Positions 3,970 to 53,415 of a stretch of 64,000 nucleotides of DNA are shown here, piece by piece. The DNA is taken from the NCBI RefSeq assembly GCF_036711975.1, contig NC_091968.1, forward strand, positions 28,505,001 to 28,569,000. The letters run 5' to 3'. Below the pieces are notes generated by a model. That model worked only from the letters and a program-made list of their open reading frames with translations, made no database searches and was not told the origin of the DNA. Source of the stretch: Onthophagus taurus (lineage: Eukaryota; Arthropoda; Insecta; Coleoptera; Scarabaeidae). Both the position numbers and the translations under genes were made by a program. Position 1 is the first letter of the stretch; the number at the start of each line of letters is the position of its first letter.

Positions 3970-5765
3970 TATGAAAAATCAATTTAAAAATCAAAAAATG
4001 GGGGGCCAACTTCCCGCACTCTGATTTATACAATCGTATAGATCTACTCGGGGAATACCTTAAGGAATGACTTAAAAACATGTTGTTATATCCGAAGTCC
4101 GTTTTAACGAGGTTCGTTAGAGGTACGAGATTTGAAGACGATTTGAATATTAAATTTTTATTTTTTGAAATTATAATTGAAAAAGATAACATGATCCAAC
4201 ATGATGATAGTGTTGTAATTGTTAATTGAATCATTGCAATTTGAAAAAGTGGGGTTAAAACAAGAAGGGGAATGAGAGTGTTGTAACGTACGCGTCCAAT
4301 ATCGTCGGTTGATTGTTTGCAGAACGTGGGGGGAGCTCAGTTTCAATTTCGGTCGCGTCATATGGTGGCCCTGGATAAATTTCCGGAACAGGCCGTTGCA
4401 GCCGGGACGTTTACAGTTCTATTTTTTGCCTGTCCCGTACGGCTCATACGCACCGCAACGTAATTGGTTTCGATGGTTTCACGGCGAATGACCCCGAAGC
4501 GAATAATTATCATCATCGGCGCGTTCTGATTATTATGCGATATCCATTTTAGTGCTCCCCTTCGTTCCATGTCTGCTGTTATTGTATTTCGATGTTTGTT
4601 AAATAAATACATATTGGACTGTCATATGTATATTCTAAAAATAACTTTTAATACGATATTGATTTCGTGAGCGAGATGGTGATAGTTAAGAAGATGTCGG
4701 GTTCGTAGACTAAATACAAAGCCAAAGAGCGAATAGTATCATAATTAGATCAAACAAGCGAGTAAACGCAGAACAACGGTTCTCGGGGTTCCCCCGAAAT
4801 ACAAACTGGCTTCCCTTAAGAGTACAAGCATCGCGACTAATTATCAAAGTTTGCGAGCTGCTTAGGGTCTTGCGTAAACCCTAAGGCAAAACTGGGTCCA
4901 TTCGGAAAGATCGTCCACCGCGTACAACTACTACTGTGCACTACTGTGTAGTTAAGCTTGAAAATAAAATATTAGTTGAACCTCATTGGTACGCATTTTT
5001 TGGTGTTTCCTGTGTGATTTTGATCATAAATACACGCGCGTAACAACACGCTGATAAAACACACCACCAACCTCTCTCTATCGCATTGATTTACTGACTC
5101 GTTGCAGTAGGAAAAAAATAGTGGTCGAAATGGTAAAAAATGCAATTTGTAAAGCTATGCCGCAAATCTACTACACTCGAATCGACGGGGAAATATTCAA
5201 ATAATCCGTGGTATTTTCGACTTTTTTCTGACAACTTTTTTTGTTCGTTACCTTTGGATAACTAAACCCTCAAAAATAAAAGATTTAAAGCCGTTGTAGA
5301 TTTAGTTTTTTTTTTAAAGCCCACTAAAATAATTAAGTGGTAGAGTAACATTTATACAAGCCGAAGAAAAGAGGAGAGAGAAGGTTCGCTTATTTAATTA
5401 AAATCTGATAAGGTCCCGGTTTCATCAAGGGAAAGGATGACTTTATCCCTTCGGCAATCCGCAAAAGACGTCTCGAAAGATTATTATCGCCCACGGCCTC
5501 GTTTAATTACTAAAACTCCACTTTGTTGTAAGTAGTTTGGATTTTTTTTTCATTCCTCACCACCAAATATATTACAACAGAGTTTACCAAAGAACAAAAT
5601 CACTTTTAAGTTAAACCTGATGGTACAAACACGGTTTTTATCAGTTTCTAGAAATCTGCTTAAAACAACGAAACCTATTGAGTTTATTTACACATTTCTT
5701 TTGTGTTAAAAAAAGTTACAAACCGGGAAAGCCCAAATCTTTGTTAGACAACGAAACGTTTTAGT
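3970..5765. other. Unique non-coding stretch
   Basis: I see no gene, no clear repeat and no RNA here. About 4240-4560 is noticeably richer in G and C than its surroundings and has CpG-containing words (for example gtacgcgtccaatatcgtcg). It could be a regulatory block or an unrecognised exon. The rest is AT-rich and ordinary. Confidence 0.5.
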
Positions 5766-5769
5766 TTAG

Positions 5770-8480
5770 GCATAATAATTTTCTAGTGATAAAGAGAAAA
5801 TTCCCAAAATGTCGAAATTAAGTACTTTTGGTTTTAAAATCGATCATACCTCAAGAATGAAAGGTGATGACGAAAAGTTTTTTAGGAATAAATTGTTTAT
5901 TATGAACTAAAAAGATATTATTGATAAACAGATTTTGTTTAGATGTAATGATTTTCTAGTGATAAAGAGAAAATCCCCATAATGCCAAAATTGAGTACTT
6001 TTGTTATCAAAATCGATTATTACTCAAAAATTAATTGTGATGAAGATAAGTTTTTTTTGAAATAAATTGTTTATTATGAACTAAAAAGACATCATCCATA
6101 AACAGATTTGGTTTAGGTATAATGATTTTCTAGTGATAAAAAAAAATCACCAAAATGTCAAAATTAAGTACTTTCGGTATTAAAATTGATCATAACTCAA
6201 GGATGAAAGGTGATGGAGAAAAGTTTTTTAGGAGTAAATTGTTTATTATGAACTAAAAAAACATCATCCATAAACAAATTTAGTTTAGGTATAATGATTT
6301 TCTAGTGATAAAGAAAAAATCACCAAAATGTCAAAATTGAGTACTTTCGGTATTAAAATTGATCATAACTCAAGGATGAAAGGTGATGGAGAAAAGTTTT
6401 TTAGGAATAAATTGTTTATTATGAACTAAAAAAACATCATCCATAAATAAATTTAGTTTAGGTAAATTAATTTTCTAGTGATAAAAAAAAATCACCAAAA
6501 TGTCAAAATTAAGTACTTTCGGTATTAAAATTGATCATAACTCAAGGATGAAAGGTGATGGAGAAAAGTTTTTTAGGAATAAATTGTTTATTATGAACTA
6601 AAAAAACATCATCCATAAAGAAATTTAGTTTAGGTATAATGATTTTCTAGTGATAAAGAAAAAATCACCAAAATGTCAAAATTGAGTACTTTCGGTATTA
6701 AAATTGATCATAACTCAAGGATGAAAGGTGATGGAGAAAAGTTTTTTAGGAATAAATTGTTTATTATGAACTAAAAAAACATCATCCATAAACAAATTTA
6801 GTTTAGGTAAATTAATTTTCTAGTGATAAAAAAAAATCACCAAAATGTCAAAATTAAGTACTTTCGGTATTAAAATTGATCATAACTCAAGGATGAAAGG
6901 TGATGGAGAAAAGTTTTTTAGGAATAAATTGTTTATTATGAACTAAAAAAACATCACCCATAAACAAATTTAGTTTAGGTATAATGATTTTCTAGTGATA
7001 AAGAAAAAATCACCAGAATGTCAAAATTGAGTACTTTTGGTATTAAAATTGATCATAACTCAAGGATGAAAGGTGATGGAGAAAAGTTTTTTAGGAATAA
7101 ATTGTTTATTATGAACTAAAAAAACATCACCCATAAACAAATTTAGTTTAGGTATAATGATTTTCTAGTGATAAAGAAAAAATCACCAGAATGTCAAAAT
7201 TGAGTACTTTTGGTATTAAAATAGATCATAACTCAAGGATGAAAGGTGATGGAGAAAAGTTTTTTAGGAATAAATTGTTTATTATGAACAAAAAAAACAT
7301 CATCCATAAACAAATTTAGTTTAGGTATAATGATTTTCTAGTGATAAAGAAAAAATCACCAAAATGTCAAAATTGAGTACTTTTGGTATTAAAATAAATC
7401 ATAACTCAAAAATTAAAGGTGATGGAGAAAAGTTTATTTGAAATAAATTGTTTATTATGAACTAAAAGGACATTACTCATAAACAGATTTGGTTTAGTTA
7501 TAATGATTTTCTAATGATAAAAAGAGAAAATCACCGAAATATCAAAATTGAGTACTTTTGGTATTAAAATTGCTCATAACTCAAGGATGAAAGGTGATGG
7601 AGAAAATTTTTTTAGGAATAAGTTGTTTATTGTCAACTAAGAAGACATCATCCATAAACAAATTTAGTTTAGATGTAATGATTTTCAGGTGATAAAGAGA
7701 AAATCCCCAAAATGTCAAAATTGGCTACTTTTAGTGTTAAAATTGATCATAACTCAAGGATGAAAGGTGATGGAGAAAAGTTTTTTAGGAATAAATTGTT
7801 TATTATGAACTAAAAAAACATCATCCATAAACAAGTTTAGTTTAGGTATAATGATTTTCTAGTGATAAAGAAAAAATCACCAAAATGTCAAAATTGAGTA
7901 CTTTTGGTATTAAAATAGATCATAACTCAAAAATTAAAGGTGATGGAGAAAAGTTTATTTGAAATAAATTGTTTATTATGAACTAAAAAAACATCATCCA
8001 TAAACAAATTTAGTTTAGGTATAATGTTTTTCTTGTGATAAAGAAAAAATCACCAAAATGTCAAAATTGAGTACTTTTGGTATTAAAATAGATCATAACT
8101 CAAAAATTAAAGGTGATGGAGAAAAGTTTATTTGAAATAAATTGTTTATTATGAACTAAAAGGACATTACTCATAAACAGATTTAGTTTAGTTATAATGA
8201 TTTTCTAATGATAAAAAGAGAAAATCACCGAAATATCAAAATTGAGTACTTTTGGTATTAAAATTGCTCATAACTCAAGGATGAAAGGTGATGGAGAAAA
8301 TTTCTTTAGGAATAAGTTGTTTATTGTCAACTAAGAAGACATCATCCATAAACAAATTTAGTTTAGATGTAATGATTTTCAGGTGATAAAGAGAAAATCC
8401 CCAAAATGTCAAAATTGGGTACTTTTGGTGTTAAAATCGATCATAACTCAAAAATGAAAGGTGATGGAGAAAAGATGGAG
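5770..8480. repeat. 173-bp satellite array, about 15.5 units
   Basis: The word ttctagtgat recurs at 5781, 5954, 6128, 6300 and 6473 and onward, giving a unit of 172-174 bp. Each unit also contains tcaaaattgagtactttt, aactcaaggatgaaaggtga and aataaattgtttattatgaa. Units in the middle of the array are nearly identical, while those at the edges are more diverged, the usual sign of unequal exchange. A two-unit block with unusual variants (gctcataactcaagg, then caggtgataaagagaaaatc) occurs near 7500-7720 and again near 8200-8420, a spacing of about 697 bp, or four units. No coding potential is visible. Confidence 0.97.
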
Positions 8481-13171: not shown

Positions 13172-15180
13172 GGCGGACCAACCAACCTTGCACCGCGACC
13201 CTAAGGATCTATTGTACCCCGATAGATATCGTTATCAAATTTCACCGTGCAGTCCAATGCTCTTAACGAACATTAATACCTTGCTCGGCGAAAGGTCATT
13301 CAGATCTTTTGAGGAGATAAACTGCGACCCAAAAATCGAGAATCTGATACGGTTAACGGCAGGGCAGTGGCATAAAACATGCTCAACCGTCTCTGCTTCC
13401 TCCGCACATAGTCGGCTAAACCCAACAAGTTGAGGTGTGCTTTTAATCGGCAGTGCCCAGTAAAAACACCCATTAGAACTTTTATGCTACTACGGGCAAG
13501 TCCTAAAATATTCCCGGGTCTCATTCCAGGAGAACTGGTCCACAGTAGGCGAAGTCTCTCTTCAGCCTACAGTCCAATCCTATATTTGGCCATCGCAAAT
13601 AATACACCAACTGCTGGTTCCGGTCCCACAAACGCTTCAGCGCTGCCATCTCGTGCTAGCTTATCTGCCGCTTTATTGCCAGCAACCCCAGAGTGACCCG
13701 GGACCCAGATCAGAAAGACTCTGTTATCACAACTCAGTGTGTTTAATGTTCTCTTACAATCATTAACCAGAGCCGACACCGTTTTCACGGCTTGCAGCGC
13801 CTGGAGAGCGGCTTGACTGTCTGAGAAAATTCGTACTGTCATGTTCTTCACCCCTCTTTCAAGAAGGATTTTAGTACCCATGTCAATAGCAAATACTTCC
13901 GCCTGGAATACAGTACAGTACGTACCCAGGTTGTAGGCTTGCTTAATTCGAGGTGTCTGGCAGTATACTCCTGCTCCTACCCCTTCAGGCGTTTTTGATC
14001 CATCTATGTACAAGCAAATGTCTGCCCGAACCAGAGAATTTTCATTTTCGATCCAGGACTGCCGCTCAGGCAGTACAATCTGGTATCGAGCATTAATCAC
14101 TGATAGTGATACCCCCAAATCTGACGGCATTGATAGCACAGTATCAGTGCTTATAATGTCTTCCGCAGCCCATTGGTAGGACATGTCGGAACAGTTTTGA
14201 GCATATTGCTTAAATCTGTAAATGGTTGTTCTAGCCACTTTCTCTATATGCAAATGCAGAGGAGATAGGCCAAGCAGAACCTCCATTGCTAGAGTTGGCG
14301 TTGTGCCTATCGCACCAGAGATTGCCAATCCAGCTACTCGTTGAATTCGTGAAAGTTTACTGATAACTGAAGTCTGTCGGACTTTCCTATACCAGGCTGC
14401 TGCTCCGTATGTGATCATAGGTCTAACCACAGTCACATAGAGCCAGTACAGTCTTTCAGGGGTAAGACCCCAATTTTTTCCACAAAGACTGCGACAAGTC
14501 CACAAGGATAGTCTAGCTTTGTGCAAAACTCCCTGCAAATGTCCATTCCATGACAGGGTTTTATCTAGGATTACTCCTAGATATTTGACTTCCTTTGAGA
14601 AAGGAATTTCTTCACCTTGGATAGTTGGGCGGATTAGTCCATCCAACTTTCGCTTCCTGGTGAAGGGCACAACAATTGTCTTTTGCGGGTTTATTGAGAG
14701 GTTCTCTCCCTTACACCAAGCGCGAATGGTATCTAGGGTCACCTGGAGGACTTTAGATATCCTCGGCAAACAGGTTCCTTTGACCATAACGACAATGTCA
14801 TCAGCATAAGCTTGTATTTCCGCACCAACGGCTTCGACTATCGCAATCAGATCGTCAACTAGGAGGGACCAAAGCAGGGGAGATAACACCCCTCCCTGCG
14901 GGCAGCCACCTCCCGGCCTGAAGCGTATCGTATCACCGTGGAGTGAAGTAGAAACTATTCTACTATCTAGCATATTGCGGATCCAACCCGCTATAGTAGC
15001 TTCCACTTCCCTGTCAAGAGCAGCTCTTTCAAGAGATTGTGGTATTGCGTTGTTGAACGCTCCCTCTATATCCAGAAACGCACAAACCAAGATTTCTTTA
15101 TCCTGCAGCGTCCTGGATACTCTACCAACTAAGTTGTGTAGAGCCAATTCTGCTGATTTTCCCGCTTGATAAGCATACTT
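13172..15180 (-). mobile_element. LINE copy 2 (I-like, RT plus RNase H), 5' truncated
   Basis: A second copy of the LINE at 1-2125, mostly identical in sequence. The frame from 15183 down to 13567 runs through RT (FLDIEGAFNN, AYADDIVVM) and RNase H (GHSGVAGNKAADKLA). It then meets a TAG at about 13567, where copy 1 has tryptophan (TGG). Further indels follow: a 16-bp gap near 13413, a gap of roughly 35 bp near 13516, and about 40 bp near 13261-13305 that copy 1 lacks. The 5' junction is near 15180, after the residues AYQAGKSAEL and before unrelated sequence. The product is therefore inactive, although the RT core is intact. Confidence 0.93.
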
Positions 15181-16856
15181 CAAATAATCAAGAGTCTCCG
15201 ATTCCTGAATACCTGATTAAGTTGATAGCTAACCCAGCTCCTTATATATTGACTAGGCAGGAGTGGATTCTTAACCATCACATAACACCTCATCAGAATT
15301 TTCTCAACATGAAGATTTCACCAGTTCTTGATTTAAAGACATCAGAAGAGCTCTACTCCAATCCATGTAGTGGATATGATATGTTATAATAAATCAGGTG
15401 TTTTAAGAATCGTCCACTTCAATCTAGCAATCTTATAAGTCCCTTTTGATACTGATAAAAATGCAAAATAAGTGACATAAACCCTAATATTTAATGATAA
15501 TCTCCCCTCCTTATACGAATATTTAGTTACTTTCTGCAAGATAATATGTCTCAATATTTATTTCTTTGTGGTTCATATTTGCTTCTATTCTGTATAAAAT
15601 TTAAATACTTGTCGATAAAGTTGGCAAATTTCCAACAGACCTCCGCGATAAATAACGCAGAAAATCGTAGCAATTATTATTCCGCGTCATCGCTCTAATT
15701 CTTCTCTTCGGCTCCGGCTGGCCCTTTCGGCGCGTTTGCTCGTCCGCGAGATGGAGCCATTGTGAGCGACTGCCGCTTCCTTTGTGTCAAACGGCAATGA
15801 TATATGGTAATTCGCCGTGGAAAGAGGCACGGGCCCATTGCTCTTCCCCCTTTCTCGCCGTTCCACTTTTCCGTAGCTCTCCGTTTTCCATTCGGGCGCC
15901 TCTTCTCGTCGCATACCGAGGAGCGGGGTACGATTAAGGGCTGGACTGGCGGCGCATCAAAGTAACACTTCGTCTCACAAAGAATTCCGGCTCGCGTTTG
16001 AAAGTAAAATGGGCCGCGCGCAATTAGTCCCTTACATCTTCTCGGCGTCTTCACGTGTACGTAAGAAAAGAAAGAAAAAAAAAGGAATGGGAATGGTGAG
16101 GCGATTTTCAGCTTTAAAAAGTGGGTAATCACGGCTTTTCCGAAATATCAACAACCCCGGTCTGGTACTTCTTTACGTGTCGGCAATCTCGAATGGCTGG
16201 CGGGGTAGTAGCAGGTAAGTGGGTCCATTATTCGCAGGGGCGTCCATAATTCACGTCCGCAAGAACAAGTGCGGCCCAGGCAATAATTAACCATAAAATT
16301 TTCACCCAATTACTTCTCCGCTTCGCCGGACGGTAACAGCAGCAGCGGTGTCGACGAGGGAAAACCCTCCCTTTGCACAATGTATCCCAGTTATTGCTAT
16401 CATCATGCATAATGAACGGGGCCCTGCAGTATTCTAATTTCGGACCCCCGAGTATAATGCAATGTGAGAAAGTTACTGCTATGTTCAAGGGGGGTGGATG
16501 TGTGAAACCGAACATCGTCTTCAAGTTCCGTCTACACTTTACACATTAATACACCAAATAATTCTTAACACAATTTTTTTTTATTTTTGTGTGATATTAA
16601 CGATTTTATACACCCCATCATTTTAATTTAAATAAAATTGCTTCGTCTTATTAATTTAAAAGGGATCTCTCAGTTTATCCGACCCTTTAATATCGTCTTA
16701 GAGTCATATAACGTTGCGGGTTGGAACACGATCTGCACGTTCGTGCAGTTATAGTAGAAATTTAACAGATTGCCACCGGTTTGTGTGCGCTGGAGGCGGC
16801 GGGTCGAGAACGAACCATTACCAACTCCCCCAAAGGATACGCCGAGGTGTGATCGA
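15181..16856. other. Unique stretch with a GC-richer block
   Basis: 15181-15640 is AT-rich and shows nothing. About 15650-16530 is richer in GC, with several overlapping open frames on both strands (for example 15695-16132 and 16228-16524, both minus), none with a recognisable domain. Long frames on both strands at once are what elevated GC gives by chance. A regulatory region or unrecognised exon cannot be excluded. 16560-16856 shows no feature. Confidence 0.4.
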
Positions 16857-28693: not shown

Positions 28694-31600
28694 ATGGATA
28701 TTTTAAAAGCGGAAATCGCAAAAAAACGTAAATTATTAGAAGAAAAACAACTAATCGTAAGTAACAAAATAACCCCCAAACATGCTAGTTATATACATAA
28801 CCTCATTTTAGGATTCAAATAAAAAATGTTTCAAAAGAGGTGATTTATTAGCAAAAGAAAATGAAGAGTACCAAGACAAATACGGTACAGCCCCCAAAGA
28901 AGAATTAACAACGAAAAAGAAACGTCCTGAAGAAAATTCCTACGAAAACACCCCCGATCATATCCCACCTCGTCACGAAGTCATATCGAAACTTCGAGAT
29001 CGTGGTGAACCAATTTTATTGTTTGGAGAGTCTCAAATCGATTCGTTTAAACGATTAAGACACTGCGAAATATTAGAACCGGAAGTAAACCGAGGATTTA
29101 GAAATGATTTTCAAGAGGCGATGGAAAAAGTTGATCAAGCTTATTTAGATGAGCTCTTAATTTCGAGTGAGGGTAAAAACGAACGTAATAAGGACTCAAA
29201 TGTTGATCAAGAACAAGAAGCGAATTATGAGGATATACAGGAGATGGCTAGGAAGATGGGTTGTGGTAATCGGGACCATGATATGACCGTTATTACAAAA
29301 TTTATTGAGGTATGATTAAATATTATTTTTATCCACTACTACCTTATAAATGAGTTATTTGCGGGTAATAATCAACTTGACAAACTAAATATTTGATTTC
29401 AGAATAATAATTATTTGAAACATCAAAATTTCAAAAAACGTCAATTTAATTTAATTTTTTTAGGACTTTTTAAAGGTTTGACATTAAAAAAACGTAAACA
29501 AATTCCTTTTTTCATATGATTTATGCATAAATTAATTAATTTTTGTGAAAAAAAACATGATCTTTTATTAAGTTCACATTTAATTTTCACAAATTGTTGT
29601 GAAGTTAGTTACAGTTGGTTGAATTTATGTCACATTTCACATTGACGTTTAAACTTTATTCAAAAATTAAAAAAAAAATAAATTTATGGAATCATATTCC
29701 TTTTTTCGTATGATTTAAGCATAAATTAATTATTTTTTGTAAGAAAACATGACGTTTCATTAAATTGACATTTAATTTTGACAAATTGTTGTGAAGTTGG
29801 TAACATTGAATTTATGTCACATTGAAGTTTAAACGTTAGTTCTAGTTTTAATTCCTTTTTTCGTACAGTGATACAATAAAGTCTACATACAGCCCGGGAA
29901 ATGATAATATCTCAGTTGCCGAAATGTAATTCAATGAAATTTTTTAACAAAACATGTAAGAAGTCCATATTATTTCCATATTTTACATAAAAACTATATA
30001 AGCTATTATTAATCAAGGGGAACACAAAACATAATCATATCTTCAACTCAAAAAGGTCTACATACAGTCCTAAAAAAAAAGTATATCAGTGTCCGTTATA
30101 GCTCAATAAAAATACCGGAAGTTGCTTATATCTCGAGTAATATTGGAATTAAACGTATCATGTTTGTGTTGCTCAAAATGACTGAAAACTGCACCAACAT
30201 TGTCTAAAATTGGTTTATAAGGTAGCAAAATTGTTCTAAATGATTAGAAATAAGTTCATAGTCATCTCATGTTGTTCAAAATCATTAAGAACTTGTTGAG
30301 CATAATTTTATACTTGTCTAAATCGTTAACAACTACTTTTAAACAATTCATGTTGCTCTAAATGACTGAAAAGTAGTTGATAATCATTAAAAACTTCTCT
30401 ACATGTATAAGGACTAGTTTATAGCAAGTTTAGGTTGCCCAGAATAACTGAAAACTGCACCAACATTGTCCAAAATTGCTTTATAAGGTAGCAAAATGTT
30501 TCGAACTAGGTTCATAGCTATCTCATATTATTCAAAATCATTGAAAATTGATTGAGCATAATTTTATACTTGTCTAAATGATTAACAACTAGTTTTTAAA
30601 CAATCCATGTTGTTCAAAATGACTGAAAACTAGTTGATAATCATTAAAAACTTCTCTACATGTATAAGGACTAGTTTATAGCAAATTTAGGTTGCCCAGA
30701 ATAACTGTAAACTGCACCAACATTGTCCAAAATTGGTTTATAAGGTAGCAAAATTGTTCAAAATGATTGGAAATAAGTTGATAGCCATCTCATGTTATTC
30801 CAAATCATTGAAAACTGGATGAGCATAATTTTATACTCGTCTAAATGATTAACAACTAGTTTTTAAACAATCCATGTTCCTCAAAATGACTGAAAACTAG
30901 TTGATAATCATTAAAAACTTGTCTAGATGTATAAGGACTAGTTTATAGCAAGTATGGTTGCCCAGAATAACTGAAAACTGCACCAACATTGTCCAAAATT
31001 GCTTTATAAGGTAGCAAAATGTTTCGAACTAGGTTCATAGCTATCTCATGTTATTCAAAATCATTGAAAATTGGTTGAGCAAAATTTTATACTTGTCTAA
31101 ATGATTAACAACTAGTTTTTAAACAATTCATGTTGCTCAAAATGACTGAAAACTAGTTGATAATCATTAAAAACTTCTCTACATGTATAAGGACTAGTTT
31201 ATAGCAAGTTTAGGTTGCCCAGAATAACTGAAAACTGCACCAACATTGTCCAAAATTGCTTTATAAGGCAGCAAAATGTTTCGAACTAGGTTCATAGCTA
31301 TCTCATGTTATTCAAAATCATTGAAAATTGATTGAGCATAATTTTATACTTGTCTAAATGATTAACAACTAGTTTTTAAACAATCCATGTTGCTCAAAAT
31401 GACTGAAAAGTAGTTGATAATCATTAAACACTTCTCTACATGTATAAGGACTAGTTTATAGCAAGTTTAGGTTGCCCAGAATAACTGAAAACTGCACCAA
31501 CATTGTCCAAAATTGCTTTATAAGGCAGCAAAATGTTTCGAACTAGGTTCATAGCTATCTCATGTTATTCAAAATCATTGAAAATTGGTTGAGCATAATT

Positions 31601-34600
31601 TTATACTCGTCTAAATCATTAACAACTAGTTTTTAAACAATTCATGTTGCTCAAAATGACTGAAAACTAGTTGATAATCATTAAAAACTTGTCTACATGT
31701 ATAAGGACTAGTTTATAGCAAGTTTAGGTTGCCCAGAATAACTAAAAACTGCACCAACATTGTCCAAAATTGCTTTATAAGGTAGCAAAATATTTCGAAC
31801 TAGGTTCATAGCTGTCTCATGTTATTCAAAATCATTGAAAATTGGTTGAGCATAATTTTATACTTATCTAAATGATTAACAACTAGTTTTTAAACAATCC
31901 ATGTTGCTCAAAATGACTGAAAACTAGTTGATAATCATTAAAAACTTGTCTATATGTATAAGGACTAGTTTATAGCAAGTTTAGGTTGCCCGGAATAACT
32001 GAAAACTGCACCAACATTGTCCAAAATTGCTTTATAAGGTAGCAAAACGTTTCGAACTAGGTTCATAGCTATCTCATGTTATTCAAAATCGTTGAAAATT
32101 GATTGAGCATAATTTTATACTTGTCTAAATGATTAACAACTAGTTTTTAAACAATCCATGTTGCTCAAAATGACTGAAAACTAGTTGATAATCATTAAAA
32201 ACTTCTCTACATGTATAAGGACTAGTTTATAGCAAGTTTAGGTTGCCCAGAATAACTGAAAACTGCACCAACATTGTCCAAAATTGCTTTATAAGGCAGC
32301 AAAATGTTTCGAACTAGGTTCATAGCTATCTCATGTTATACAAAATCATTGAAAATTGGTTGAGCATAATTTTATACTTGTCTAAATGATTAACAACTAG
32401 TTTTTAAACAATCCATGTTGCTCAAAATGACTGAAAAGTAGTTGATAATCATTAAACACTTGTCTAAATGTATAAGGACTAGTTTATGGCAAGTCCAAGC
32501 TCACCTAGTTTAGCACTAGCACAATCACTAGAGCTAACATAAGACCTAGACCTAGAATAATTCGGGTTTAGCCGTCTTGAGAGACGTGCGACTAAGCCCG
32601 AATGTTTCTAGTTCTAGTTTTGCACTACCATTAGAACTAACACAGACCTAGAACTAGAATAATTCGGGTTTAGCCATATTAATGAGCTTTCATTTCGTAG
32701 CACAAGTCGAACTGTTTCGACTTTGTATTAAAATAATATAGACTTCCAATATCCTTCATTTAAAAAATTCATTGAATTACATTTGAGGAGGTGAGATATT
32801 ATCATTTTCTGGGGTGTATGTAAACTTTATTGTATCACTGTATGATTTAAGCATAAATTAATTAAATTACGTTTCATAAAATTGACATTTAATTTTGACA
32901 AATTGTTGTGAAGTTGGTTACAGTTGGTAACATTAAATTTCTTTCACATTGACGTTTAAACTTTATTCAAAAATTTATTTAAAAATATAAATTTATCTCA
33001 TGATATAAACTTAACCTTAGTGAATAATAGCCCTCATTATATGCTCGTATAATAATATACTATTATTTATTTTAATTTCTGCTGGGTAGTTCGTTAATTT
33101 GGATGGTTTGATGTTGAGTATCATCATAAGCAGGGGGATTTATCGGAACTCTAAATCCGGGATCGAGATTATTATTATATAAAGGAGGTGGTCCATTTGA
33201 ATATGTCTCATTAATTTGTTGACGTTGATTAGTCGTTGGTTGATTCCTCGAGTACGGAGGTGGTGGAGGTAAACCTAACAAAAAAATTATTAATCAAACA
33301 AAATTAATTAATTAGTAATCTAACCTGTTATTGGAGAAATTAAAGGTGGTCTATTTTCCTCTCGTAAACCTCCAGTTACAAAAATCGGAACTGAATAAAT
33401 AACTAAACCTTTTCGTTGAATTTCCTCTGAGAGCCTTTTTGCTTGTACTTTCATATAAATCGACGCTGAAATCATCGCGCCCAAAGTAAAAGGGCCCAAA
33501 ACAATAATACAAATATAATAGGTATCCATGTTCTCAAATTATACTTAGCATTGAATTATTTATCGTCAAGTGAAAAATTTTCAATTGGCCCCTATCAACT
33601 TTATCTTATCACTTCATGGAGAGATAATCAGAACATATCAATAAAAACAAGTAATAAAAAATGAGGTTTTATTGTGCTTATAATTTAAATAGGTTTATCA
33701 CAATACATCTTAAATAGATTAATTTATAATTTCCGATTCAATCAATATCTTTAGAATCTTACATTATTAGGTGTAATTTGTGCACCTAAAAAATTTGTTT
33801 GAGGTTATAATTTTATGAATGTAATAATAATTACCTGGAAGTGTTGTTATTGACGTTGGCCCATCGTTTGGGGGTATCGTCGCTATTATTCTTCCGTTTG
33901 GATTAACGAGGAATCTATAACCTAATTTTTTTTTGTTATTTACGTTGAAATGTTATTTTTTTTTACCTTTATTAACGAAATCTTGCATTTTTCGTCTTCT
34001 CACTTCAAAAATTGTTAACATTACACCCAAAACTAATAATATCGCTATAAAAGGAACCGTCACGGCAACATAGTTACTCGATTCCATTTTATTGGGATAT
34101 GAACTCAAAAAATCTACTTTTTTCTCATCCTTTTAAAGATAACGTCTTATCTTTGTTATCTATCGTCAATTTGATGTGATTTTAACTCCGTCATCATCTT
34201 TTATTATCATTATCATAACTAATATAATAGTTTTTATTTTAACATTAAATTCTTATAGGTTATGTTCACAGCTTAGGTTATGTCTTTATTAACCACCAAC
34301 TTTAAAAAAATTAATTTTTTTTTAATAAAAATTGATATTTAACAAAAATATAAATAAAAATAAAGTTTAAAACGAAGAAAAAGTTGTGTAAATAACAAAA
34401 TTGGATTAAATTTTAATATTAAAAGAATTTACAATTAAATATGCGATTTAAAAATTAATACCAACTTAAAATTAGTAAACATAACCTCAATTTCTTTGAA
34501 ATTATTTTAAAGAAACCAAACAAAGTTAAGTTGTATTAAATTATATTATCATAAAACTTTAAATAAACATAAAACTACAATTATTTCATTTATGTTTTCA

Positions 34601-35081
34601 GTTTATGTTAAAAATGTGGCAAGATCAATTACAAAATCGTCCCCCAGAAGAGAAAATGGGAACAAAAGGAAAATTGGCAGGCGCTATTTACGCTCAAACG
34701 AAAGTCTATTTAAAACCTTTATTAAAAAAATTAAAAACATTTACATTACCCGAAGATATCTCTGACAGTTTAACGGAAATTGTGGAACATTTATTGCACC
34801 GTAACTATTTAAAGGCAAGCGATGCGTATCTTCAAATGGCTATTGGAAATGCTCCTTGGCCAATCGGTGTGACGATGGTGGGTATTCACGCGAGAACAGG
34901 CCGAGAAAAAATCTTTTCAAAGAATGTTGCGCATGTAATGAACGATGAAACGCAAAGAAAATACATTCAAGCTTTAAAAAGGTTAATGACGAAATGCCAG
35001 GAATATTTTCCAACTGATCCATCGAGATGTGTTGAATATAACGCTTTTAATGGACCACAAGTGCCGGGGAAAAGTTCATAG
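28694..35081 (+). CDS. PRPF18: Pre-mRNA-splicing factor 18 (PRP18 homologue), complete
   Basis: Three exons: 28694-28756, 28812-29309 and 34602-35081, all with GT-AG joints, giving about 346 residues (human protein 342). The start [18 protein letters not shown] matches the family N-terminus. Exon 2 carries the PRP4-like motif region [12 protein letters not shown] and ends TKFIE. Exon 3 holds the Prp18 helical domain, including the invariant loop [13 protein letters not shown] and [12 protein letters not shown]. The protein acts in the second catalytic step of splicing with the U5 snRNP and Slu7. Intron 2 is about 5.3 kb, contains a satellite-bearing transposon (29866-32840), and hosts two small genes on the other strand (33072-34087). 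An inserted element begins 38 bp after the stop codon, and no AATAAA lies between. Confidence 0.97.
29480..29865 (+). repeat. Dispersed repeat copies in PRPF18 intron 2
   Basis: The words attccttttttcgtatgatt, taagcataaattaatta, catgacgtttcattaaattg and aattgttgtgaagttggt recur at 29500-29640, 29690-29850 and 32841-32960, and in the 390-bp duplication at 25498. The copy at 29690-29740 is uninterrupted. The copy ending at 29865 is split by the element described next. Confidence 0.8.
29866..32840. mobile_element. TIR element carrying a 257-bp satellite array
   Basis: The left end cagtgatacaataaagtcta and the right end, whose complement reads cagtgatacaataaagttta, form imperfect inverted repeats extending at least 85 bp (both continue through gataatatctca and aatgtaattcaatgaa). 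TA flanks both ends (29864-29865, 32841-32842). Removing the element and one TA rebuilds cttttttcgtatgatttaag, which exists intact at about 29700. There is no transposase. The interior is the 257-bp array plus two partial ctagttctag hairpin repeats (about 32505-32690). It lies in PRPF18 intron 2. Confidence 0.9.
30130..32500 (+). repeat. 257-bp satellite array, about nine units
   Basis: The word gcaccaacattgtc starts at about 30191, 30457, 30714, 30980, 31237, 31494, 31751, 32008 and 32265, giving 257-bp units with two of 266. Other fixed words are ctacatgtataaggactagt, aggttgcccagaataactg and ttaacaactagtttttaaac. Inner units are nearly identical and the first is most diverged. The array sits wholly between the inverted ends of the 29866-32840 element. 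Confidence 0.97.
32841..33071. repeat. Right part of the dispersed repeat split by the satellite element
   Basis: tatgatttaagcataaatta, then aattgttgtgaagttggtta, continue the repeat interrupted at 29865. The last 60 bp contain the 3' end and polyadenylation signal of the minus-strand gene at 33072. Confidence 0.75.
33072..33529 (-). CDS. Small single-pass membrane protein with PY motifs, nested in PRPF18 intron
   Basis: Two exons on the minus strand, 33325-33529 and 33072-33274, joined GT-AG in phase 1, encode 135 residues. Residues 5-27 ([20 protein letters not shown]) form one hydrophobic membrane segment, followed by a basic stretch ([15 protein letters not shown]). The C-terminal half is proline-rich with PPPPPYS, PPPLYN and PPAYDD. 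These are PPxY-type motifs that in other proteins bind WW domains, such as those of Nedd4-family ubiquitin ligases. A polyadenylation signal lies at about 33066-33071. I do not recognise the family. It resembles the next gene (33751-34087) in layout and intron placement. The role is unknown, though the layout suggests a membrane adaptor. Confidence 0.72.
33751..34087 (-). CDS. Small single-pass membrane protein, paralogue-like neighbour
   Basis: Three short exons, 33967-34087, 33835-33921 and 33751-33785, all with GT-AG joints, give about 80 residues. The start is [18 protein letters not shown]. Residues 8-28 are a membrane segment, followed by the basic [10 protein letters not shown]. The middle exon encodes [18 protein letters not shown], and the protein ends TPNNVRF. 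A polyadenylation signal (AATAAA) lies at 33668-33673. The second intron falls after a glycine at residue 70 in phase 1, as the only intron of the neighbouring gene does at residue 69. Shared strand, topology and intron phase suggest a tandem duplication. Unlike its neighbour it has no PPxY motif. No family is recognised; transcript support would be decisive. Confidence 0.6.
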
Positions 35082-35118: not shown

Positions 35119-37688
35119 CCAGGAATTTCATTTTACTAGCAATATATGAATGTAGTAACCATAGTTACGAAATTACTTACATTGTCCCACGTAACATGAA
35201 TGTTTCTAGTTCTAGATGTAATGTTAGTTCTAATTTTACACTAACACTGTTACTATGTAGAATAAACACTATACCTAGAACTAGAATCATTTGGGTTTAG
35301 CCACACGTCTCTAAAGACGGCTAAACCCGAATGATTTTAGTTCTAGGTATAGTGTTAGTTCTAGTTTTAGACTAGCACTATTACTATTTAGAACTAACAC
35401 TATACTTAGAACTAGAATCATTTGGGTTTAGCCACACGTCTCTAAAGACGGCTAAACCCGAATGACTCTAGTTTTAGGTATGGTGTTAGTTCTAGTTTCA
35501 CATCAGCACTGTTATTCTGTAGAACTAACACTATACCTAGAACTAGAATTATTTGGGTTTAGCCACACGTCTCTAAAGACGGCTAAACCCAATTGATTCT
35601 AGTTCTAGGTATAGTGTTAGTTCCAGTTTTTTACACTAACACTGTTACTATGTAGAACTAACACTATACCTAGAACTAGAATCATTTGGGTTTAGCCACA
35701 CGTCTCTAAAGACGGCTAAACCCGAATGATTCTAGTTCTTGGTCTAGTGTTAGTTCTAGTTTTAGACTAGCATTATTACTATGTAGAACTAACACTATAC
35801 CTAGAACTAGAATCATTTGGGTTTAGCCACACGTCTCTAAAGACGGCTAAACCCAAATGATTCTAGATCTAGGTACAGTGTTAGTTCTAGTTTCACACTA
35901 GCACTGTTACTATGTAGAACTAACACTATACCTAGAACTAGAATCATTTGGGTTTAGCCACACGTCTTTAAAGACGGCTAAACCCAATTAATTCTAGTTC
36001 TACGTGTAGTGTTAGCTCTAGTTTTTTACACTACCACTGTTACTGTCTAGAATTAACACTATACCTAGAACTAGAATCATTTGGGTTTAGCCACACGTCT
36101 CTGAAGACGGCTAAACCCGATTGATTCTAGTTCTAGGTATAGTGTTAGTTCTAGTTTTTTACACTAGCACTGTTACTGTCTAGAATTAACACTATACCTA
36201 GAACTAGAATCATTTGGGTTTAGCCACACGTCTCTAAAGACGGCTAAACCCGAATGACTCTAGTTTTAGGTATGGTGTTAGTTCTAGTTTCACATCAGCA
36301 CTGTTATTCTGTAGAACTAACACTATACCTAGAACTAGAATTATTTGGGTTTAGCCACACGTCTCTAAAGACGGCTAAACCCAATTGATTCTAGTTCTAG
36401 GTATAGTGTTAGTTCTACATAGTAACAGTGTTAGTGTAAAAAACTAGATGAAAAACTATAGTTCTAGTTTTTTACACTAGCACTGTTACTGTCTAGAATT
36501 AACACTATACCTAGAACTAGAATCATTTGGGTTTAGCCACACGTCTCTAAAGACGGCTAAACCCGAATGACTCTAGTTTTAGGTATGGTGTTAGTTCTAG
36601 TTTCACATCAGCACTGTTATTCTGTAGAACTAACACTATACCTAGAACTAGAATCATTTGGGTTTAGCCACACGTCTCTAAAGACGGCTAAACCCAATTG
36701 ATTCTAGTTCTAGGTTTAGTGTTAACTCTAGTTTTTTACACAAGCACTGTTACTATCTAGAATTAACACTATACCTAGAACTAGAAACATTTGGGTTTAG
36801 CCACACGTCTCTAAAGATGGCTTAACCCGAATGATTCTAGTTCTTGGTCTAGTGTTAGTTCTACTTTTAGTTCAATAAAAATATACTACAATCTACTGCT
36901 GCATAACAATTAAAACTAGAACTATTACTCTGTAGAACTAACACTATACCTAGATCTAGAATCATTTGGATTTAGCCCCACACGTCTCTAAAGACGGCTA
37001 AACCCAAATGATTCTAGTTCTAGGTATAGTGTTAGTTCTACATAGTAACAGTGCTAGTGTGAAACTAGCCACAAGTCTCTAAAGACGGCTAAACCCGAAT
37101 GATTCTAGTTCTTGGTCTAGTGTTAGTTCTATTTTTAGTTCAATAAAAATACACTACAATCTAGCGCTGCATAACTATTAAAACTAGAACTAACACTAGA
37201 CCTAGAACTAGAAAGTTTCGGGTTTTTCGGGTCTGAAGACGCACGGCTAAACCTGAACGTTTCTAGTTTTAGGTCTAGTGTTAGTTCTAGTTTTACACTA
37301 GCACTATTACTATGTAGAACTAACACTATATCTAGAACGTGGGTAAAACATGTTCAGACACATAGCTAAACCCGAAACTCTCTAGTTCTAGGACTAGTGT
37401 TAGTTCTAGTTTTACTTCAATACAAATATGCAACATAGTGCTATTTTATGCAACTAGCGCTACCTACAACGTCTTAAAAGAGGTACTACTAAACGGAATG
37501 TCTCTAATTCTAGGTCTATTGTTAGTTCTAGAGCTAGTATTAGTCTAGTTTTCATCTTGTCACTCATTATATCAAAATTTTACTGTAATGTCAAATTATA
37601 TTAACATATTGCATTTTATGTGGGACAAAGTAACTAGGTTTCTATGGAAATATATTTTTATATATTGCATACTAATTGAAATTCACTG
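35119..37688. mobile_element. TIR element made of about fifteen 131-bp hairpin units
   Basis: The ends are imperfect inverted repeats of about 75 bp (left ccaggaatttcattttacta ... cttacattgtcccacgtaac; right, complemented, cagtgaatttcaattagtat ... ttactttgtcccacataaaa), with TA on each side (35117-35118, 37689-37690). Inside, ccacacgtctctaaagacgg recurs at 35301, 35432, 35563, 35696, 35826 and 35958 and on, a period of 130-133 bp. Each unit is a near-perfect hairpin: tagaactagaatcatttggg ... loop ... then its complement. Toward the right the units degrade. No protein is encoded. The element fills the space between the 3' ends of PRPF18 and P5CR. Confidence 0.88.
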
Positions 37689-52679: not shown

Positions 52680-53415
52680 AGTAAACTAGTGCTAGCCAAA
52701 CTTGCCTAGTGAACTAGAATGTTTCGGGGTTAGCCGTGCGTCTGGTTAGTTCTAGTTTTAATTATAATGCTGCGGTAGACCAAGAACTAGAATCATTCGG
52801 GTTTAGCCGCACGTCTTTAAAGACGGCTAAACACAAATGTTTCTAGTTCTAGGTCTAATGTTAGTTCTAGTGACAGTGCAAGTGTAAAATTAGCACTAAC
52901 ACTATATCTAGAACTAGAATCATTCGGGTTTAGCCGTCTTTAGAGACGTGCCGCTAAACCCAAATGATTCTAGTTCTATGTATAGTGTGAGTTCTACATA
53001 GTAGCAGTGCTAGTTTTATACTTGCACTGTCACTAGAACTAACATTAGACCTAGAACTAGAATCATTCGAGTTTAGCCGTCTTTAGAGACGTGCAGCTAA
53101 ATCCAAATGATTCTAGTTCTATGTATAGTATTAGTTCTACATAGTAATAGTGCTAGTATTAGTTCTAGTTTTAATTATTATGCAGCGCTAGACCAAGAAC
53201 TAGAATCATTCGGGTTTAGCCGCACGTGTCTAAAGACAGCTAAACACAAATGTTTCTAGTTCTAGGTCTAATGTTAGTTCTAATGTCAGTGTAAGTGTAA
53301 AACTAGCACTAACACTATACCTAGAACTAGAATCATTTGGGTTTAGCCGCACGTCTCTAAAGACGACTAAACCCAAATGATTCTAGTGCTAGGTATAGTG
53401 TTAGTGTAGATGGAA
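52680..53415. repeat. Second array of ctagttctag hairpin repeats
   Basis: About five units with gggtttagccgcacgtcttt or gggtttagccgtctttagag, each flanked by tagaactagaatcattcggg and its complement. They are related to the 131-bp units at 35119-37688, but the spacing is less regular (roughly 120-150 bp) and the loop occurs in both orientations. I did not find terminal inverted repeats around this array. Confidence 0.88.

Follow-up and report, generated by a model that had tools for sequence, protein, structure and literature searches.

How does a satellite array come to lie among genes: did it originate in place, or did it arrive as the cargo of a mobile element? We addressed this question in the beetle Onthophagus taurus, in a stretch of 64,000 nt (NC_091968.1, positions 28,505,001 to 28,569,000 of the forward strand), hereafter the window, to which all positions given without a contig refer. 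An intron of the Prp18 gene in this window holds an element of 2975 bp (29866-32840), in which an array of a 257-bp satellite is enclosed by inverted repeats. This element is very probably a non-autonomous Tc1-like transposon that carries the satellite array as cargo. This reading is based on numerous copies with homologous ends and flanking TA, on relatives that bear transposase sequence, and on array junctions that are shared between copies although the number of satellite units varies.

The element is flanked by TA on both sides (29864-29865 and 32841-32842, no strand assigned). The outer part of the left terminal inverted repeat lies at 29866-29985 on the plus strand and starts with CAGTGATACAATAAAGTCTACATACA, of which the far end of the element is an imperfect inverse. 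The right terminal inverted repeat was located at 32719-32840 on the minus strand. When the arms at 29861-29980 and 32726-32845 were compared, 120 nt were 82% complementary. About 175 bp inward of the outer repeat, the left end carries an inner direct repeat, CTCAAAAAGGTCTACATACAGTCCT (30047-30071, plus strand), which was not found in the right ends of the family. The satellite array occupies 30168-32494 on the plus strand and consists of nine units, each either 257 or about 267 bp long (period 257, 9.0 copies, 93% matches), and the 257-bp unit is itself composed of subrepeats of about 82 bp. At the right junction (32489-32509, plus strand), the satellite sequence GCAAGT passes directly into CCAAG..CACCTAG, which belongs to a 131-bp palindromic repeat (GGGTTTAGCC), a remnant of which fills 32512-32680 (no strand assigned). 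There was no stop-to-stop frame of at least 120 aa within 29866-32840. The initial annotation of the window, made from its sequence alone, had described satellite units between imperfect, TA-flanked inverted repeats, and its boundaries agreed exactly with those given here.

The genome (290.8 Mb in 33 contigs) was then searched with the ends of the element. With up to three mismatches, a 28-mer of the end matched 92 times in forward and 92 times in reverse orientation (184 in total), compared with 0 for the control. The left-type 33-mer gave 63 + 65 matches and the right-type 33-mer 81 + 85, with 0 for their controls, the two sets overlapping each other. Since these genome-wide counts face zero controls, chance is excluded as their source. 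Searches with the left end, the satellite and the right end, in each of which 40 candidates were scored (for the left end 40 of 248, all of which matched), yielded 80 loci, which were merged into 48 stretches. A script recognized 17 complete elements of 769-3159 bp in these stretches, and 16 of them, including the element of the window, had TA on both sides. For one of the 17, C7_19944153, the partner that the script chose was an end fragment of 24 nt lying beyond the right (T3) end. The 257-bp satellite was carried by seven complete elements (1555-3159 bp), the flanks of which differed from each other, while the remaining ten contained only the 131-bp repeat, which is unrelated to the satellite. 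The search for further loci with both ends around the same repeat, which the initial annotation had suggested as a check, was thus positive. The inner direct repeat was detected in 21 of the 27 ends classed as left (T5) and in 1 of the 39 classed as right (T3). That single T3 case is a left end misclassed because of an indel; several left ends with indels were classed as T3, and the counts are given as the script produced them.

Three loci (L084, L085 and L086) combined related ends with a Tc1-like transposase sequence. TA flanks both L084 (1160 bp) and L086 (1483 bp) on either side; in L085 the left end is damaged and TA stands at the right. The open fragment of L084 matched HTH_Tnp_Tc3_2 (E 2.6e-19), and those of L086 and L085 matched DDE_3 (E 2.6e-9 and 1.2e-7, respectively), with 34 residues between D and E in L086 (DD34E). 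The homology of the satellite element to these loci covers about 200 nt of the left end, including the inner repeat, and about 120 nt of the right end. Among the relatives, the inner repeat was present in both ends of L085, in the left end of L084, and in the right end of L086. In Tc1 ends of the inverted repeat/direct repeat (IR/DR) type, as in Sleeping Beauty, an outer and an inner direct repeat are found in both inverted repeats. The satellite family departs from this type in having the inner repeat in its left ends only, and it appears from the end sequences to be derived from an IR/DR-type element whose right end was reduced.

These results assign the element to the Tc1-like (IS630-Tc1-mariner) transposons, since it has a TA target duplication and its ends show homology to the ends of a DD34E transposase-bearing element; its earlier placement in the Tc1/mariner size class is in agreement with this. 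Miniature inverted-repeat transposable elements (MITEs) have no coding capacity and usually remain below about 800 bp. The element is non-autonomous, has no coding capacity and is MITE-like in its working, but it exceeds the strict size limit of MITEs with its 2975 bp, and the complete elements reach 3159 bp. Helitron and DINE-TR elements can also have central tandem repeats, and they possess neither long inverted repeats nor a target duplication. This identity was rejected for the element because inverted ends and the TA duplication are present.

As for the source of the cargo, neither the 257-bp nor the 131-bp repeat matched L084-L086 at E 0.1, and the satellite was therefore most likely taken in from outside. 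The alternative that the repeat arose from the transposon's own interior has a precedent in Xstir of Xenopus, for which such an internal origin is reported (PMC12628747), and the subrepeats of the 257-bp unit would suit it as well. The missing match speaks against it, even if the three copies compared are broken and the relevant part of the interior could have been lost from them. We consider an internal origin unlikely.

The edges of the arrays were compared in 23 satellite-bearing stretches. The right edge was readable in 22 (L089 was dropped because it was cut) and the left edge in 18 (C2_1054786, C2_1064330, L088, L090 and L095 were dropped for the same reason). At the right edge, 17 of the 22 arrays ended at the identical position of the unit and were followed by the same sequence. 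Three of the 17 are spread over only about 53 kb of C2 and may represent one duplicated locus, and the proportion is 15 of 20 if they are counted once. The left edges fell into a class of seven, a class of four (one member of which agrees with the others just in the final dozen bases) and seven single cases, among them the element of the window. The number of full units in the right-edge stretches ranged from 1 to 16. Even close siblings differed in this respect: the element of the window and those at C10 4.63 Mb and C11 30.80 Mb contained 9, 2 and 7 full units, respectively, at 97.0-98.5% identity of their left ends and 96.7-97.5% identity of their right ends. Among 113 units, the mean identity was 92.7% within arrays compared to 89.9% between them, and 61 units had their nearest neighbour in their own array, where 6.6 were expected. 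Both the unit tabulation and the comparison of divergence had been proposed in the initial annotation. Of the 16 stretches with satellite and at least one end, 15 had the array pointing in the same direction with respect to the ends.

A hand tally of array loci against ends covered at least 35 loci among the matches listed. Both ends were present at 14 of them (two truncated) and one end at nine; in eight of these nine the other side read was too short, and C1 2.69 Mb has a 25-nt remnant there. Six loci fell outside the tally of ends (C3 4.80, 22.78, 23.67-23.68, 23.71 and 27.04 Mb; C5 1.03 Mb). The last six arrays had no end in the flanks read, which measured 0.5-2.3 kb per side: C1 4.42 Mb (1.8 and 2.3 kb), C2 1.013-1.020 Mb (0.5 and 1.3 kb), C10 11.71 Mb (1.0 and 1.3 kb), C7 38.67 Mb (1.1 and 0.8 kb), C3 23.66 Mb (about 0.9 kb on each side) and C5 9.81 Mb (0.9 kb, right side only). 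Three of these six (C1 4.42 Mb, L088 and L090) keep the common right junction, and they therefore fit elements that have lost their ends. Classical satellite DNA forms long heterochromatic arrays. A 26-mer of the unit gave 263 matches genome-wide with up to three mismatches (control 0), and the matches listed lie in short dispersed arrays. On C2, two satellite elements with nearly identical units (L075 and L076, 1.054-1.068 Mb) stand in opposite orientation a few kb apart, and the long array at 1.013-1.020 Mb (L088, L089) near this pair has units nearly identical with theirs.

Arrays without ends could also mean that the 257-bp repeat spreads alone as a dispersed satellite island, for example in the form of circles, and that its position between transposon ends is accidental. 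In favour of this, some of the arrays without ends in the flanks read are more diverged (L095, L097/L098), and L095 and L098 share another right junction, at satellite position ~187 followed by 'gacgca'. The shared second junction and the diverged units suggest that the satellite may be older than its capture. Against it stand the seven complete satellite elements with both ends and the right junction and orientation shared by most arrays, as described above. For the bracketed arrays this alternative is refuted, and overall it is very improbable; it may apply to the history of the repeat before its capture.

Several findings nevertheless weigh against a transposon with satellite cargo. The shared right junction is missing in 5 of the 22 arrays, the array is inverted in C7_3806245, and the complete element C7_22205118 has TA on one side only, with AA on the other. 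To these are added the six arrays without an end in the flanks read. In addition, no intact transposase of the L084-L086 lineage was seen: the reading frame is broken in all three copies, and in a genome search with the L086 fragment (153 matches; 150 of 3082 candidates scored), no frame longer than 225 aa is open in the matches listed at 72% identity or above. Among the matches listed, lineages at 48-58% identity to the L086 fragment contained open frames of about 345 aa. A DDE_3 search for an autonomous partner, in which the best 150 of 1708 candidates were compared by eye, recognized none between the listed ends. As to the autonomous partner for which the initial annotation had suggested a search, transposase-bearing relatives with related ends were found, with broken frames in the three copies read. 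Since an intact transposase of the lineage is lacking among the matches listed, the present mobility of the family seems doubtful.

A DDE transposon with D-81-E spacing, which sits between both ends of the related element at C7 17.77 Mb (L014) and reads inward from the left end, has next to no chance of being what drives the family, because it is a separate insertion with its own end sequences, of which a 1283-bp copy, 99.9% identical, was found in an unrelated 121-bp array on C3 (L082, 1208-2490). The DDE_3 frame at C7 17.77 Mb was accordingly rejected as a nested, unrelated transposon. A more diverged copy adjoins a 131-bp repeat in L083. The D-81-E transposon thus lies inside or beside tandem or palindromic repeats each time (L014 with L081; L082; L083), and a preference for such targets is possible.

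We return to the Tc1-like transposon with satellite cargo. Its ends descend from a Tc1-like DD34E element. A transposase of this lineage would recognize the outer repeat of either end and, in the left end, the inner repeat as well. Acting in trans, this enzyme would excise the element and insert it into TA. Since the right junction is common to 17 of the 22 arrays while full units number between 1 and 16, it is probable that a composite of the 131-bp and the 257-bp repeat was captured once, which would then have spread by transposition and changed its array length afterwards, through unequal exchange or slipped repair of excision gaps. To judge from the sequences compared, a single capture, spread by transposition and later length change is the simplest history. 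It had been proposed that the array behaves as, or grew inside, a mobile element; growth inside is half of the history, in which the satellite was most likely taken in first and then changed its length within the element. There was no sign of a host function in anything seen.

More tentatively, the Tc1-like ends might be a general carrier of satellites, in which each jump resets the array length because the gap left by excision is repaired incompletely or with slippage. One pair of ends occurs with two unrelated repeats, and the right junction is kept, whereas nearly every copy differs in its left edge and number of units. We regard this extension as possible, though less likely than not. If it is true, cut-and-paste transposition directly seeds and diversifies islands of satellite among genes, and the ends of some islands are lost afterwards.

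The intron that holds the element extends from 29310 to 34601 on the plus strand, as judged from a donor GT at 29310 and an acceptor AG that ends at 34601. The upstream exon encodes a PRP4-like motif (PF08799, E 8.9e-11) and the downstream exon the Prp18 domain (PF02840, E 3.5e-62), in agreement with the earlier placement in a core splicing factor gene. An uninterrupted copy of the target repeat lies at 29679-29860 on the plus strand and reads ccttttttcgTAtgatttaagcataaattaatt with TA at 29709-29710, and identical words flank the element on each side. The local neighbourhood contains copies near 29485 and near 29679 besides the interrupted one. Genome-wide, the repeat was found at 41 places among the matches listed (40 of 586 candidates scored), which include the query itself and its neighbour in the window. 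All 41 align across the insertion point (query 31-32; start at or before 19, end at or after 154, small gaps allowed). The 'empty site' reported near 29700 is thus a paralogue of a dispersed repeat and not an allele without the insertion. It does show the sequence before insertion, which is known because the repeat family has uninterrupted copies. Within the same intron, a proline-rich, open, exon-like stretch preceded by AG lies on the minus strand at about 33085-33280, and it is perhaps the last exon of another gene.

A second array between inverted arms was found directly behind the Prp18 gene, where an array of the 131-bp repeat (GGGTTTAGCC) lies in a candidate element at 35119-37688 with TA on both sides. 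Its arms of about 75 nt (CCAGG... at the left, ...CACTG at the right) are imperfect, with 61 of 73 aligned bases equal and gaps besides, and they are unlike the ends of the satellite family. Their local alignment scored 45, a value that one in 1000 random pairs of 80-nt pieces from the window attained; the arms of the first element score 108. The sequence makes it a candidate for a second satellite-carrying Tc1-like element with other ends. As a second repeat array between TA-flanked inverted arms, it would fit the proposed general role of such ends as carriers. The other arrays of the window gave no convincing match to the ends of the satellite family, apart from a weak piece at 33549-33613 (E 0.02). 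Comparison of their flanks gave only short or repeat-internal matches, the exception being the inverted arms that enclose the 131-bp array at 35.2-37.6 kb. Another, shorter 131-bp array (52776-53405) did not match the satellite-family ends, and no inverted flanks were found around a 173-bp tandem array at 5760-8474 (15.7 copies, 91% matches). Two long and very similar frames on the minus strand (28-2025 and 13567-15216) may belong to a non-long-terminal-repeat retrotransposon, whose reverse transcriptase and RNase H they resemble.

The locus represents an unusually complete case of cut-and-paste satellite dispersal, in which a single genome provides the ends and the target duplication together with copies of the target that lack an insertion, junctions common to many arrays, graded unit numbers and a relative with transposase sequence. 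It thus becomes possible to test, one copy at a time, whether a satellite located between genes originated on the spot or was brought in as cargo. A literature search by the letters of the end and of the 131-bp repeat gave unrelated papers, and none of the titles and beginnings of abstracts listed in searches by terms reports the present family. A comparable element, miDNA4 of Xenopus, was reportedly described by Scalvenzi and Pollet in 2014. According to a later review, it is a Tc1/mariner MITE that contains its satellite as a single monomer or as an array of variable length, for which the capture of an existing repeat was proposed and the arrays of which later lose their ends (PMC12628747). 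The statement in the initial annotation that tandem repeats inside MITEs are known in some animals is borne out by this description.

Other systems share some features with the present family. Tetris of Drosophila virilis is a non-autonomous DNA transposon with internal tandem TIR-220 repeats of about 220 bp and varying array length, with longer arrays outside the element (PMC4079207). It differs in being a foldback element with target duplications of 8-10 bp, which its authors assigned to Mutator, and in having the repeats inside its inverted repeats; no autonomous copy was found (PMC4079207). The TCAST transposon-like elements of Tribolium castaneum likewise combine satellite sequence with inverted repeats and a target duplication, are dispersed, and lie near or in genes (PMC3411249). 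However, they consist of nearly one monomer and a 121-bp segment, both in inverted repeats, with an ACT duplication and no multi-unit array in that group (PMC3411249). In the same species, TCsat23 forms short arrays, mostly of five and eight monomers, in the DNA transposon Rehavkus-1_TC, but it sits in the inverted termini of this 9.5-kb element of another family (PMC10218199). Going by its description, the closest likeness is to miDNA4, as a Tc1/mariner element with a variable number of satellite monomers between its ends (PMC12628747); the hosts differ. The kind is thus already known from Xenopus, and the present family is a well-supported further member of it. Set against the description of miDNA4, the family appears to add a transposase-bearing relative, unequal ends with the inner repeat in the left end only, and a second cargo, the two repeats carried being unrelated.

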